This document shows, one piece after another, positions 12,365-24,515 of a stretch of 64,000 bases of DNA; the stretch's first letter is position 1, and the number at the start of each line of letters is the position of its first letter. A program made the translations under genes and the position numbers. Source of the DNA: Aquificaceae bacterium (GTDB lineage Bacteria > Aquificota > Aquificia > Aquificales > Aquificaceae); contig JBBFKQ010000002.1 in the NCBI GenBank assembly GCA_037481935.1, positions 62,001 to 126,000 on the forward strand. The letters are read 5' to 3'. The notes below the pieces were generated by a model that had not been told where the DNA came from, ran no database searches, and saw only the letters and a program-made list of their open reading frames with translations.

Positions 12365-12419
12365 CTTAACCAAATCTTAACCAAACCTTAAAGAAATCTT
12401 AACCTTTCTGCCCTATCCT
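12365..12419 (+). promoter_or_regulatory. Pho-box promoter A (four repeats) before the DUF2334 operon
   Basis: Four direct repeats with 4-nt spacers: CTTAACC (12365), CTTAACC (12376), CTTAAAG (12387), CTTAACC (12398). Then 9 nt and TATCCT (12414-12419), with the ATG 7 nt later. The 11-bp period and the repeats in place of a -35 element match the known layout of PhoB-activated promoters. The start codon falls where transcription should begin, so the mRNA may be leaderless. Confidence 0.8.
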
Positions 12420-12426
12420 TTTACCC

Positions 12427-13173
12427 ATGAAGCTCGCCATAGTGGAACTGCACGATGTGAGCCCCTACTACAGGGCTGAGTTTTTAGCCTCTCTTGAGCT
12501 TCTGGAGGAGGTGGGATTGCATAGATTTTCCCTCCTGGTGGTGCCCTACTTCTGGGAATGTGCACCTCTGGGAGGGGATATGGGCTTTTTAAGCCTTCTC
12601 AAAGGTCTTGATGCAGAGCTTTTGCTTCATGGCTATACGCACAGGGGCAGAAAGAGGCTTCAGCACATGCTCTGGACGGACGGGGAGGGAGAGTTTGGAG
12701 GGCTGGGACTGTCAGAAACCTATGAGAGGGTTCATGCAGGCCTGGAACTTATGGAACACTTTGGGCTAAAGACAAGGTTTTTCGTTCCGCCCGCTTGGAT
12801 AGGAAACCCATATCTTGAGGACGTGCTCTATTCTCTTGGCTTTATGGGTGTGGCTTACCGCTGGCACATAAAAGACCTGAAGGCAGAAAGGGCCATAAGG
12901 TCCCCGGTCCTCACCTTCAGCAACAGGCACCTTTTTTCCTGGCTCAGCCTGAAGGTTGTCCCAAACATTGAAAAGATTTACAGCAATCATGACCTTCTCA
13001 GGCTTGCACTCCATATGGCAGATTTTAGAGATGAAAGAAAGGTAAGACTGTGGAGGGATATACTCTGCAGGATAAAAAACAGCAGGAGGTTAACCAGCTA
13101 TGGGGAAATACTTGGCAAAGGCGGACCTTCACCTTCACTCAAAGGCCTCCAACCTGCCGGGGGGCTGGTTTAG
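12427..13173 (+). CDS. DUF2334 / polysaccharide deacetylase-like protein
   Basis: 248 residues, no signal peptide. It opens with LAIVELHDVSPYYRAEF, where the His-Asp resembles the metal-binding start of the NodB-like fold, and has LLHGYTHRG for the second metal motif. The DUF2334 family is assumed to be deacetylases of unknown substrate. It is the first gene of a Pho-box operon with two glycosyltransferases and PsiE, so a role in envelope glycolipid or polysaccharide remodelling under phosphate stress is inferred. Its 3' end overlaps the next gene by 74 nt. No Shine-Dalgarno precedes the ATG. Confidence 0.75.
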   Translation: MKLAIVELHDVSPYYRAEFLASLELLEEVGLHRFSLLVVPYFWECAPLGGDMGFLSLLKGLDAELLLHGYTHRGRKRLQHMLWTDGEGEFGGLGLSETYERVHAGLELMEHFGLKTRFFVPPAWIGNPYLEDVLYSLGFMGVAYRWHIKDLKAERAIRSPVLTFSNRHLFSWLSLKVVPNIEKIYSNHDLLRLALHMADFRDERKVRLWRDILCRIKNSRRLTSYGEILGKGGPSPSLKGLQPAGGLV

Positions 13174-15346
13174 CAGGCTCGTAGGATGCCCAGAGAGCTT
13201 TACAGAGCCTCTTGAGATATACAGAAGGCTAAAAGAGAGAGGCATGAGCTTTGTAACCATAACGGACCACAATACCGTAAGCGGAGTTCTTGAGATAGCT
13301 CACATGCCCGAGGTTTTCATAAGTTGCGAATATACGGTGGAGATACCTGAAGAAAGGGGTAAGGTGCACGTGCTGGTGTATGGCATTACAGAATCACAGC
13401 ATCAGGACCTTCTCAGGCTCAGAGAAAACATCTACGACTTTGTCCCTTATCTCAAGTCTTATAGAATAGCCCATTCACTTGCCCATCCCCTCTACTCTGT
13501 TCAGGGCACAAGGGTGAGCAGGAGTCTTGTGGAAAAGCTTGTGCTTCTCTTTGATAACTGGGAGGTGATAAACGGAACAAGGGGTGACGGAGTCAGATAC
13601 ATAGAGGAGACCATAGCCCGTGCTTACGATGGATGGGACAGAATACACTATCTGGCCGAAAGGCACAGAATTGAACCTCAGAGGACAAGAGAAAGAATAG
13701 CCTTTACCGCAGGCTCTGACGACCACGGTGGTATGGATGTGGGCAGAACATGGACAGGGGTTGAGGGGGCAACCACCAGAGAAGATTTCCTGAAAGGCCT
13801 ATGGGAGGGTAGAACGCAGGTGGGCACAGAAGAACTTGGCGATAAGAGGCTTCTAAATATGGTGTGTAGAGTTGGTTATGACTTTCTGAGGAGCAAAAAC
13901 CATATACCCTCTGAAGTAAAGCCTATTACCGACTACCTTTTTATGCATTCAGACAATCCAGTGGTAGGTATGCTTCTGAGGAATTTTTTAAGTATAAAGG
14001 CAGAAAGGGTGGACCTCCTGAGGGAGATAGCAAAAAAGCTGCCCTCTTTTACCTTAGAGAGATTTTTGAAAAGCCCCTCACCGCAAACCATCGGGGAGCT
14101 GTGCCTGTCCCTCATGGCTCATGGCTTCCCCGCCTTTTTAAAATACGCCCAGAGAAAAGAAGAGCAGAAGATAAAGGCTCTTGGAAAGGAGTTTGGAATA
14201 GTCAACGGAAAAACACCAAAGGTTGCCTACCTTACAGATACATACCACCACATAAACGGCGTTGCAAGAAGCAATAAGCTAATAAGAGAGATAGCTCTTG
14301 AAGAAGAACTGCCCTTTACTGTGGTTATATCCAGCTCGCAGGTTATGGAGGAGGAGAACCTGGTAAACCTCCAGCCCCTTTTTGAACTGCCCACGCCCTT
14401 CTATGAAGAGTTAAGGATGGGAGTGCCCAACCTCATAGAGTTCATGGACTTTCTTGAGAGGGAGGGCTTTACTCAGGTTCACATAGCCACACCCGGACCT
14501 CTGGGTCTTATGGGCCTTCTTCTGGGTAAGCTTCTTGGTCTAAGAGTAACCTTTGCCTTCCATACGGACATACCATCTTACGCAAAAACCTACACAGGAG
14601 ACTCAGAGTTGGAAGAAATGCTCTGGAAAGCCTTCCTTTTCCTCGGCAACATATCCGACAGGTTCTTTGTTCCCTCAGAACACTACAGAAAGATTTTTGT
14701 AAGCAGGGGGCTAAACTACGGCAAGATAAGCACCTTCAGGCGTGGCGTTGATACTGAGTTATTCTCCCCTGACAAGAAAAGCGACGACTTCTGGACCGAA
14801 AGGCTTGGAGTCAAAAGGCATCAGAAAGTTATCCTCTATGTAGGAAGAGTCTCAAAGGAAAAGGGTCTGGACAAATTCCTTTACGCAGCAAGATGCTTCC
14901 CTGAGGATGTTTTTGTGGTGGTGGGAGATGGTCCCTACAGGAAGGAGCTCGAAAACAAAAAGCCAAAAAACATGCACCTGGTGGGCTATATGGTGGGGGA
15001 AGAGCTTGCAAAAGCCTACGCAAGCTCTCATGTCTTTCTCTTCCCCTCTGAGACGGAGACCTATGGACAGGTGGTTCTGGAAGCGATGGCAAGCGGACTT
15101 CCAGTAATAGTTAGCTCAAGAGGTGCTTCTCACGAGCATGTGCAGGAAGGAGTGAACGGTTTTATAGCCACAAGGACAGAAGAATTCGTGGAAAAGCTCT
15201 CCCTTCTCATATCCAAAGAAGAAATGAGAAGAAACATGTCGCAGGAAGCCCTCTACTATGCAAAAAGCCTTGACATGAGAAAAACCTACATAGATTACAT
15301 GTTAGCCATAGCAGGTCTCGGGAGGCTTGTCCATGAAGCTTGTTGA
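13100..15346 (+). CDS. PHP-domain / GT4 glycosyltransferase fusion
   Basis: 748 residues. The N-terminal third is a PHP metallohydrolase-like domain (KADLHLHSKAS, TITDHNT, GSDDHGG). After a helical linker (~240-370) comes a GT-B fold glycosyltransferase of family 4 (~371-740) starting VAYLTDTYHHINGVARS, with ETYGQVVLEAMASGLPV near the donor site. The glycosyltransferase half resembles SqdX/SQD2-type lipid glycosyltransferases and mannosyltransferases. The ATG at 13100 lies inside the previous gene but has AGGAGGT 9 nt before it, which supports the long overlap. Likely a cytoplasmic-face enzyme; the acceptor is unknown. Confidence 0.85.
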   Translation: MGKYLAKADLHLHSKASNLPGGWFSRLVGCPESFTEPLEIYRRLKERGMSFVTITDHNTVSGVLEIAHMPEVFISCEYTVEIPEERGKVHVLVYGITESQHQDLLRLRENIYDFVPYLKSYRIAHSLAHPLYSVQGTRVSRSLVEKLVLLFDNWEVINGTRGDGVRYIEETIARAYDGWDRIHYLAERHRIEPQRTRERIAFTAGSDDHGGMDVGRTWTGVEGATTREDFLKGLWEGRTQVGTEELGDKRLLNMVCRVGYDFLRSKNHIPSEVKPITDYLFMHSDNPVVGMLLRNFLSIKAERVDLLREIAKKLPSFTLERFLKSPSPQTIGELCLSLMAHGFPAFLKYAQRKEEQKIKALGKEFGIVNGKTPKVAYLTDTYHHINGVARSNKLIREIALEEELPFTVVISSSQVMEEENLVNLQPLFELPTPFYEELRMGVPNLIEFMDFLEREGFTQVHIATPGPLGLMGLLLGKLLGLRVTFAFHTDIPSYAKTYTGDSELEEMLWKAFLFLGNISDRFFVPSEHYRKIFVSRGLNYGKISTFRRGVDTELFSPDKKSDDFWTERLGVKRHQKVILYVGRVSKEKGLDKFLYAARCFPEDVFVVVGDGPYRKELENKKPKNMHLVGYMVGEELAKAYASSHVFLFPSETETYGQVVLEAMASGLPVIVSSRGASHEHVQEGVNGFIATRTEEFVEKLSLLISKEEMRRNMSQEALYYAKSLDMRKTYIDYMLAIAGLGRLVHEAC

Positions 15347-16442
15347 TATAACACCTTATTTTCACAGCAGGAGCGGAGGCATAAGGAGGTATCTGCTTGA
15401 AAAAACAAAATATCTGCAGCAAAGGGGTGTGGAGCATGTGCTCATAGTTCCCGGCAGGGAGAGAAGAACATACTGCATAAATGCTACGAGAGTTTACGAA
15501 CTTCCCTCCTTCCCCCTCCCCCTCACTGGAGGTTACAGGTTCTTCTCCTCTTTCTCAGAGATAAGGGAGATACTGCAGAGGGAGGAGCCTGATGTGGTGG
15601 AGCTGGGCGGAACCTACCAGCCAGTAAACCATCTCAAGTCTGAAAGATACCTGCTGAGCGTTTTCTATCACTCTGACATAAGGACTGACCTGTCCCTGCT
15701 CCCTGCTCCGGAAAGGCTCAGAAAAGCCCTTCTGGAACATACCATAAAGAAGAAGCTCTCCAGGGCAGATATGATAATTACACCCTCAAGAGTGCAGGAA
15801 GAGTTTCTTAAGGCTTCGGGGCTTGAAAATGTGGTTACGGTAAACCTTGGAGTGGACACGGATGTGTTCAACCCGTCAAAGAGAGACCCATACTTTGACA
15901 GAGCTCTGGGCATAGGTGCGGGCAAGTTTAAACTACTATACTCTGGGAGGCTTTCACCGGACAAAAACGTAGACCTTCTTCTTGAAGTTTTCCAGCACCT
16001 TGACCCTACACTTTTCCACCTTGTTGTGGCGGGGGATGGTCCTGCAAGAAAAAAGGTGGAAAAACTCACCCAGAAGCTTCCTAACCTCACTTACTTGGGA
16101 TACCTTCACAGGGAGGAGGAACTTGCCAGGGTATATGCGAGCTGTGATGTTTTTGTGAGCACATCCTGCGGTGAAACCTATGGACTTGCCTTCCTTGAGG
16201 CTCAGGCATGTGGCTGTCTTCTGGTTGCCTTTGATATGGGTCTTGAAACCCAGCCCTTCAAAGAGTTTCTTGTGAGAGAGCCGACCCTGGAAGCCTTTTA
16301 CGACGCAATAATTCATGCATGCAATGCCTTAAGCCTTTCCAACAGAGAAAGGCTAAGCTCCTATGTTCAGAGGCACTTTTCATGGGAATCCACCTTTGAC
16401 AGGCTTCTCGGGGTTTACCGTGGAGTCCTTGCTCAGGTATAG
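15333..16442 (+). CDS. GT4 family glycosyltransferase
   Basis: 369 residues from the ATG 7 nt after GGGAGG (an in-frame TTG 6 nt earlier is less likely). GT-B fold: the N-terminal SRSGGIRRYLLE glycine-rich loop, then YSGRLSPDKNVDLLLEVF and the C-terminal ETYGLAFLEAQACG donor-binding motif. The start overlaps the PHP-GT gene by 14 nt. A second glycosyltransferase in the same Pho operon suggests two successive sugar additions. Lipid versus polysaccharide acceptor is not decidable from the sequence. Confidence 0.88.
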   Translation: MKLVDITPYFHSRSGGIRRYLLEKTKYLQQRGVEHVLIVPGRERRTYCINATRVYELPSFPLPLTGGYRFFSSFSEIREILQREEPDVVELGGTYQPVNHLKSERYLLSVFYHSDIRTDLSLLPAPERLRKALLEHTIKKKLSRADMIITPSRVQEEFLKASGLENVVTVNLGVDTDVFNPSKRDPYFDRALGIGAGKFKLLYSGRLSPDKNVDLLLEVFQHLDPTLFHLVVAGDGPARKKVEKLTQKLPNLTYLGYLHREEELARVYASCDVFVSTSCGETYGLAFLEAQACGCLLVAFDMGLETQPFKEFLVREPTLEAFYDAIIHACNALSLSNRERLSSYVQRHFSWESTFDRLLGVYRGVLAQV

Positions 16443-16866
16443 CCAGATAGTCAACCCCTCACTTGTGCTCTACTACAGCATAAGAGTTCTCACATACGGT
16501 GTTATATTCCTCGGGCTTTTTCTGCTTCTTGTGGAAATCTTCTCCATGGAGCTCAGCTTTGAAAATCTTGTCAAGAAACTCACAATAAGGATTCTTGAAC
16601 TCGTCATTCTTTATGAAATATTCAGGGCAGTGCTCGGCATATTTGAGTATCACAGGGTAAAACTTACTTTCCTTGTGGATGCCTCCATATCCTTCATGCT
16701 CAGAGAGCTTATCATAACGGTATACTCAGGAAAGCTTGATATTCATATGTCCATATCGATAGGTATCATAATGTTCATTCTGGCTCTTCTGAGGATAGTG
16801 GTAGTCAAATTTTCCCCCTCTTCAGAGACAAGGCAGGAAATACAAAAACCCTTAACAGAATCTTAA
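16420..16866 (+). CDS. PsiE-like phosphate-starvation-inducible membrane protein
   Basis: About 148 residues from a GTG at 16420; an ATG at 16363 would give 167 but overlaps the previous gene by 80 nt, so the start is uncertain. Four hydrophobic segments, with the pattern YSIRVLTYGVIFLGLFLLL, ILYEIFRAVLGIFEYHRV and LRELIITVYSG, as in E. coli PsiE. PsiE is a membrane protein of unknown function induced by phosphate starvation. Its position in an operon with a Pho-box promoter supports both assignments. Its stop codon lies inside a repeat of the next Pho promoter. Confidence 0.75.
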   Translation: MESLLRYSQIVNPSLVLYYSIRVLTYGVIFLGLFLLLVEIFSMELSFENLVKKLTIRILELVILYEIFRAVLGIFEYHRVKLTFLVDASISFMLRELIITVYSGKLDIHMSISIGIIMFILALLRIVVVKFSPSSETRQEIQKPLTES

Positions 16867-16883
16867 CAATTCTCGGTTAAACT
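16851..16883 (+). promoter_or_regulatory. Pho-box promoter B before the 68-residue gene
   Basis: CTTAACA (16851), GAAT, CTTAACA (16862), 9 nt, TAAACT (16878-16883), then 7 nt to the ATG at 16891. The second repeat contains the TAA stop of the PsiE-like gene. The gene after it has no ribosome site and is probably leaderless. Confidence 0.78.
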
Positions 16884-16890
16884 ATTCAGC

Positions 16891-17097
16891 ATGAAGGAGA
16901 GGATTGATAGCCTCATTCAGGAGATTGAGAGGGAGAAGGACTGCTACAGAAGGTTTCTGAGGAAAGGGGAGAGGCTCAGGAAGCGAGAAAGAGACACCTT
17001 CCTCACCGAAAAGGATAGAACCATACTGATAGAGTCCTTTGTGGTGGGTGGGCTTCTGGAAAACCTTATAACAAAGGCAGTAAACAGACTCTTTTAG
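16891..17097 (+). CDS. Small charged helical protein, Pho-box controlled
   Basis: 68 residues, not recognised. The first ~48 residues are very rich in Lys, Arg and Glu and look like a coiled coil (IQEIEREKDCYRRFLRKGER); the tail (IESFVVGGLLENLITKAVNR) is amphipathic. It has its own Pho-box promoter 7 nt away and overlaps the convergent SCP2-like gene by 4 nt at the 3' end. The dedicated promoter argues that it is a real gene. Confidence 0.6.
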   Translation: MKERIDSLIQEIEREKDCYRRFLRKGERLRKRERDTFLTEKDRTILIESFVVGGLLENLITKAVNRLF

Positions 17098-20954: not shown

Positions 20955-20987
20955 ATTATAAAGTAGGATTGTTAAGATTTGGTTAAG
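20955..20987 (-). promoter_or_regulatory. Pho-box promoter C of the P-type ATPase operon
   Basis: Read on the minus strand: CTTAACC (20987-20981), AAAT, CTTAACA (20976-20970), 9 nt, TATAAT (20960-20955), 8 nt, ATG. The first repeat contains the TAA stop of the CZB-like gene upstream. Confidence 0.8.
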
Positions 20988-24482: not shown

Positions 24483-24515
24483 CTTAACGAAAACTTAACA
24501 CTCTGGGGGTAAACT
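24483..24515 (+). promoter_or_regulatory. Pho-box promoter D of the GTPase/EAL-GGDEF operon
   Basis: CTTAACG (24483), AAAA, CTTAACA (24494), 9 nt, TAAACT (24510-24515). A 21-nt stretch with AAAGGAGGA precedes the ATG at 24537, so this mRNA has a short normal leader. Confidence 0.8.

Follow-up and report, generated by a model that had tools for sequence, protein, structure and literature searches.

A Pho-controlled operon encoding a PHP–glycosyltransferase fusion in Aquificota, a candidate route for membrane-lipid remodeling

We analyzed a 64,000-nt stretch from the 1.69-Mb genome of an Aquificaceae bacterium (G000), hereafter called the window, and all positions refer to the numbering of this whole stretch. 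The genes in question lie on the + strand and encode a DUF2334 protein (12427–13173, 248 aa), a 748-aa protein in which a PHP phosphoesterase domain (13100–13855) is joined to a GT4 glycosyltransferase domain (14207–15346), a second GT4 enzyme (15336–16442, 368 aa counted from ATG, with an alternative TTG start at 15327 likewise open), and a PsiE-like membrane protein (16363–16866). The two domains of the fusion protein, PHP-GT4, are connected by a helical linker (13856–14206) with a moderately hydrophobic helix that may contact the membrane. As expected for an operon, neighboring genes overlap (13100–13173 between the DUF2334 and PHP-GT4 genes; 15336–15346 between the PHP-GT4 and second GT4 genes). 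The open reading frames are those given in the initial annotation, and Pfam recognized DUF2334 (70.7 bits vs. a cut-off of 26) and both GT4 domains (85–110 bits). Clear transmembrane segments are absent from the DUF2334, PHP-GT4, and second GT4 proteins.

The assignment of PsiE (PF06146) was marginal, with a score of 24.0 bits just above the cut-off of 23.9. Its start at 16363 falls inside the second GT4 gene and relatives align from about 16417, which is probably the true start. A gene-neighborhood survey of PHP-GT4 with PsiE, as had been proposed, revealed PsiE adjoining PHP-GT4 in some Aquificaceae and in Geobacteraceae; the operon itself has a PsiE neighbor in few species only. The description of the operon as ending in PsiE holds for the window, but PsiE is an optional member, and we rejected it as an essential or core partner because most relatives lack it at this place. 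A literature search on Geobacter PsiE under phosphate limitation returned nothing relevant.

Ahead of the DUF2334 gene are four 7-bp repeats, CTTAACC, CTTAACC, CTTAAAG, and CTTAACC, with 11-bp spacing (12365–12404, + strand), and this spacing is identical to that of the Pseudomonas Pho box CTGTCATNNNNCTGTCAT (PMC8528852). The Pho site of four repeats that had been assigned to the segment 12427–16866 is thus real, but it is positioned just 5′ of that segment. The motif CTTAACN5CTTAAC with at most one mismatch had 18 matches in the genome versus 0 for the reversed control, and the densest cluster genome-wide, with three overlapping matches, was the one at this operon. No other site in the window reached a score of 15/18 across three repeats, and shuffled windows gave 0–1 such sites (one strand). 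Other genomic copies precede, among others, genes for a PstS-type binding protein, PhoU, PhoX, and PhoD. A −10-like element, TATCCT (12413–12418, + strand), follows the last repeat by about 10 bp and precedes the ATG by about 9 bp; its T/A/T columns are invariant in 13 aligned sequences. This arrangement, with the ATG directly behind the element, points to an mRNA with little or no leader.

The Pho array is upstream of homologous operons as well. It stands 49–84 bp ahead of the first gene in most Aquificaceae, as it does in most Hydrogenothermaceae operons led by olsB, in a pair of loci from Thermodesulfobacteriota (L118, L122), and, in weaker form, in some Geobacter. The Hydrogenobaculum loci (L100–102) and most other phyla showed no such array. 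The initial annotation had staked its reading on a Pho association in relatives, and most of them retain the array, its distance being almost constant.

A strong PHP-GT4 match was found in 32 of 61 Aquificota relatives, and the gene order DUF2334, PHP-GT4, GT4 was kept in all 30 of the relatives' neighborhoods that were fetched. One of the 32, a genome of the Hydrogenothermaceae (G048), has its PHP-GT4 gene (L107:4297-6610) broken by a stop or frame change. In Thermocrinis, phoX is the first gene and the core operon follows. Most Hydrogenothermaceae have the ornithine-lipid genes olsB-olsA in first place, with phoX downstream in L105 and L134, and Hydrogenobaculum has olsA as the first gene of the operon. 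OlsB (PF13444) is absent from the window genome; it was detected in 11 of the 61 genomes, every one of which carries PHP-GT4. A scan of genome contigs located the fusion also in Thermodesulfobacteriota/Desulfobacterota, Campylobacterota, Verrucomicrobiota, Nitrospinota, and Nitrospirota, these phyla being taken from record titles, which can be wrong for MAGs. One record titled Acidobacteria (L112) matches a genome of the window's genus (G009) in sequence and neighborhood and is probably a mislabeled MAG. The system is thus not confined to one family, as the label "Aquificaceae version" had implied. Thermodesulfobacteriota such as Caldimicrobium possess the same three-gene core, Verrucomicrobia only DUF2334 followed by PHP-GT4, and Campylobacterota PHP-GT4 and a second glycosyltransferase without DUF2334. 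In Geobacteraceae, PHP-GT4 adjoins polyphosphate kinase (PPK1) in five loci and a divergent PsiE gene in three. In this modular distribution, PHP-GT4 is the constant part, which the other genes decorate.

We compared the glycosyltransferase domain of PHP-GT4 with known enzymes. The four best NCBIfam models for the window protein were all glycolipid synthases (IagA/BgsA, 113 bits; GpgS, 100 bits; Dgs, 82 bits; Mgs, 79 bits). The Agt references for the phylogenetic tree came from plasmid records, namely a P. aeruginosa glycosyltransferase beside plcR/plcH/cerN and a Roseomonas pair of a PlcP-like protein and a glycosyltransferase. Judging from its neighbors (PMC8528852), we take the former to be Agt2, whose gene is numbered PA0842. 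In the tree, the PHP-GT4 glycosyltransferase domain was sister to, not inside, the group of Agt2 and PlcP-linked Agt, with support of 93/91, good but not overwhelming, on long branches. The motifs of the Agt clade, GRVAxEKN and FPSxTDTFG (PMC8231724), are matched in PHP-GT4 by GRVxKEK and FPSxT(D/E)T, next to HTDxPxY; at the D/E position, 22 of 42 sequences have Asp and 20 have Glu. The window protein is among the latter, although Asp is described as characteristic of the Agt clade. A structure-based search, one of the checks suggested earlier, confirmed the GT4 fold, since PHP-GT4 matched only GT4 enzymes (MshA, BshA, HepE, PimB', PimA, WaaG), but all with high Z, so that lipid GT4s were not told from other GT4s.

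These placements bear on the idea that the operon effects a Pho-controlled change of surface polysaccharide or LPS core, in which a short glycan made by the glycosyltransferases is deacetylated by DUF2334, while the PHP domain strips a phosphate substituent to save phosphate. GT4 enzymes are indeed common in glycan synthesis, and CE4-fold deacetylases often act on polysaccharides. In the tree, which lacks trehalose enzymes, the glycosyltransferase domains were nevertheless apart from E. coli WaaG, WaaB, WcaL, WcaI, and WcaC as well as from most other Aquificota GT4s, so that the grouping with O-antigen or trehalose enzymes named earlier as a counter-indication did not appear as far as these LPS-core and colanic-acid enzymes go. 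Moreover, the neighbors are lipid genes, and no Wzx/Wzy-type neighbor was recognized among the proteins tested. We regard a role in surface glycans as quite improbable.

The PHP domain was detected only faintly by Pfam (PHP, 16.7 bits, below the cut-off of 26.4; PHP_C, 21.4 vs. 21.3), but its metal-ligand pattern HxH, D, H, E, H, DxH is intact. Residues D9, H13, D56, H57, H90, H129, D207, and H209 are present in 42 of 42 homologues, H11 in 40, and E77 in 37. The AF2 models were confident (89.4 and 90.0, the DUF2334 model having a pLDDT of 90). When the PHP domain of the window protein was compared with the PDB, only pentatricopeptide-repeat stretches with no significant domain match were retrieved, which we judged spurious, and a literature search on PHP-glycosyltransferase fusions found nothing relevant. 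The closest of the weak profile matches were generic metal-dependent phosphoesterases of known structure (3e0f and 2yb1, E = 0.03–0.14). PHP enzymes of known function hydrolyze small phosphomonoesters or nucleotides, and we know of none that acts on phospholipids or has a role in lipid remodeling. The profile matches and the known activities speak for a PHP domain that is no phospholipase C but a phosphatase. Its substrate would be phosphatidic acid or a nucleotide by-product, while diacylglycerol (DAG) or phosphatidylglycerol (PG) would come from another enzyme and the rest of the pathway would be unchanged. Against this, no other PlcP-like enzyme was found, though the absence of one family leaves others possible, and we consider such a phosphatase rather unlikely. 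The phospholipase PlcP was detected in none of the 61 related genomes with a single query, the Roseomonas PlcP-like protein, which did find the positive control, Shinella PlcP (2.8e-91). The PHP domain, whose metal ligands are intact, likely substitutes for PlcP.

The PlcP-Agt system, which remodels lipids under phosphate starvation (P. aeruginosa PA3219/PA3218/PA0842; Agrobacterium; SAR11), is comparable in its Pho box control, its pairing of a phosphoesterase with a GT4 enzyme, and the sister position and common motifs of the glycosyltransferase. It differs in that PlcP is a calcineurin-like metallophosphoesterase encoded by a separate gene, whereas PHP-GT4 unites a phosphoesterase of the PHP type with the glycosyltransferase in one protein, and in that the window operon adds a further glycosyltransferase and a deacetylase. 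A Sulfitobacter protein (L207:1960-4188) provides another comparison, as it consists of a Metallophos domain fused to a GT4 domain whose place in the tree is beside the Agt/PHP-GT4 group. Phosphoesterase-GT4 fusions thus exist with another phosphoesterase superfamily. This gene is on a conjugative plasmid and adjoins a gene for an LPG_synthase_TM-type membrane protein. We rejected the possibility that the fusion carries PlcP itself, because a BLASTP comparison of its N-terminal region with the PlcP-like protein from Roseomonas showed no similarity.

The second GT4 enzyme resembles GpgS (NF053787), with a full-length score of 200 bits vs. 57 for the next family, and groups with GpgS-like enzymes in the tree. 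The DUF2334 protein scored 94 bits against GpgD (NF053788), and that of Verrucomicrobia 192 bits. Structure matches of its AF2 model were CE4 deacetylases and ArnD, an enzyme acting on lipid-linked sugars, and its metal triad (D10, H68, H72) is invariant. A literature search on DUF2334 was uninformative. DUF2334 had been presented as a new lipid-processing part, but it is not wholly new, because GpgD of Pseudomonas is a DUF2334/COG3233-type deacetylase of GlcNAc-PG. The GpgSDF system of P. aeruginosa, which makes glucosaminyl-phosphatidylglycerol (GlcN-PG; PMC12713373), likewise has a GpgS-type GT4 and such a deacetylase in one operon. The operon could accordingly encode a divergent GpgSD pathway, with GlcN-PG, a phospholipid, or another glucosaminylated Aquificota phospholipid as the alternative product; it would shift membrane charge, not save phosphate, and the PHP domain would trim a phosphate or hydrolyze a side product. 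In addition to the closeness of both enzymes to GpgS and GpgD, a Sphingomonas GpgS-like gene that overlaps a CDP-alcohol phosphatidyltransferase gene speaks for this. However, both window scores are far under the equivalog cut-offs (480 bits for GpgS and 280 bits for GpgD), and therefore acceptor and sugar may differ. No gpgF-type flippase gene adjoins the operon, PF03706 matches being located elsewhere in the genome (C2:4225 and C4:112316 vs. the operon at C2:74427). Such a pathway also accounts neither for PHP-GT4, the constant member, nor for regulation by the Pho site or the association with phoX, ppk, and ornithine-lipid genes. We consider it unlikely.

We instead favor, at a probability of about 60%, that the operon carries out membrane-lipid remodeling under PhoB-type regulation, replacing phospholipid with a phosphate-free amino-glycolipid. 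We propose the following order of steps. At low phosphate, the PHP domain would hydrolyze the head group of a phospholipid to give DAG. The fused Agt-like GT4 domain would, judging by its place in the tree and its motifs, add a sugar to form hexosyl-DAG, to which the GpgS-like GT4 may, by homology, transfer N-acetylhexosamine. The DUF2334 enzyme, with its conserved metal triad, would then remove the acetyl group, and the predicted end product is a phosphate-free amino-glycolipid such as hexosaminyl-hexosyl-DAG. Synthesis would be expected on the cytoplasmic leaflet, since the three enzymes have no clear transmembrane segments. The last two steps parallel those of GpgS/GpgD (PMC12713373) and HexS/HexD; the HexSDF system of Clostridioides difficile produces aminohexosyl-hexosyl-DRG by transfer of HexNAc onto hexosyl-DRG and subsequent deacetylation (PMC10128005). 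This likeness is one of function. HexS carries the annotation of an MGDG synthase and HexD that of a polysaccharide deacetylase, and the system is regulated by HexRK. The suggestion of a phosphate-starvation glycolipid in the initial annotation is upheld by the Pho site, the Agt-sister glycosyltransferase, and the olsBA, phoX, and PPK neighbors, so that the link to lipids is well supported by context, while the product itself is a prediction. More tentatively, at worse than even odds, PHP-GT4 may be a phospholipase C and DAG glycosyltransferase in one polypeptide, an independent replacement of PlcP-Agt in at least six phyla that makes hexosaminyl-hexosyl-DAG together with the GpgS- and GpgD-like enzymes. 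To our knowledge, this would be the first phosphate-saving lipid remodeling route in Aquificota.

If this reading is true, a function would be given to the widespread, unstudied PHP-GT4 family, and its carriers would be a source of lipids seen in hot springs. In Yellowstone streamers, which include Thermocrinis among their members, 1G and 2G glycolipids dominate and an aminoglycolipid, G-NG-DAG, is present as well, all of them ascribed to "unknown thermophilic bacteria" (PMC4318418). The predicted product of the operon fits G-NG-DAG, which is a suggestion only, and branched iso fatty acids on some streamer glycolipids point to other sources too. The question of who produces these abundant, unassigned glycolipids becomes testable.

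Further Pho boxes were observed in the window. One (CTTAACAGAATCTTAAC, 16851–16867, + strand) lies across the end of the PsiE gene, ahead of a 68-aa open reading frame (16891–17097, + strand), which has no Pfam match but is 75–90% conserved in eight related neighborhoods, often with its own Pho box. Another (20971–20987, − strand) is near a 155-aa open reading frame and a 124-aa one without a Pfam match, with a P-type ATPase gene further on. A third (24483–24499, + strand) is ahead of a 168-aa open reading frame without a Pfam match, followed by frames of 154 and 176 aa, the last of which resembles a small GTPase, and represents an unexpected Pho-controlled cluster.
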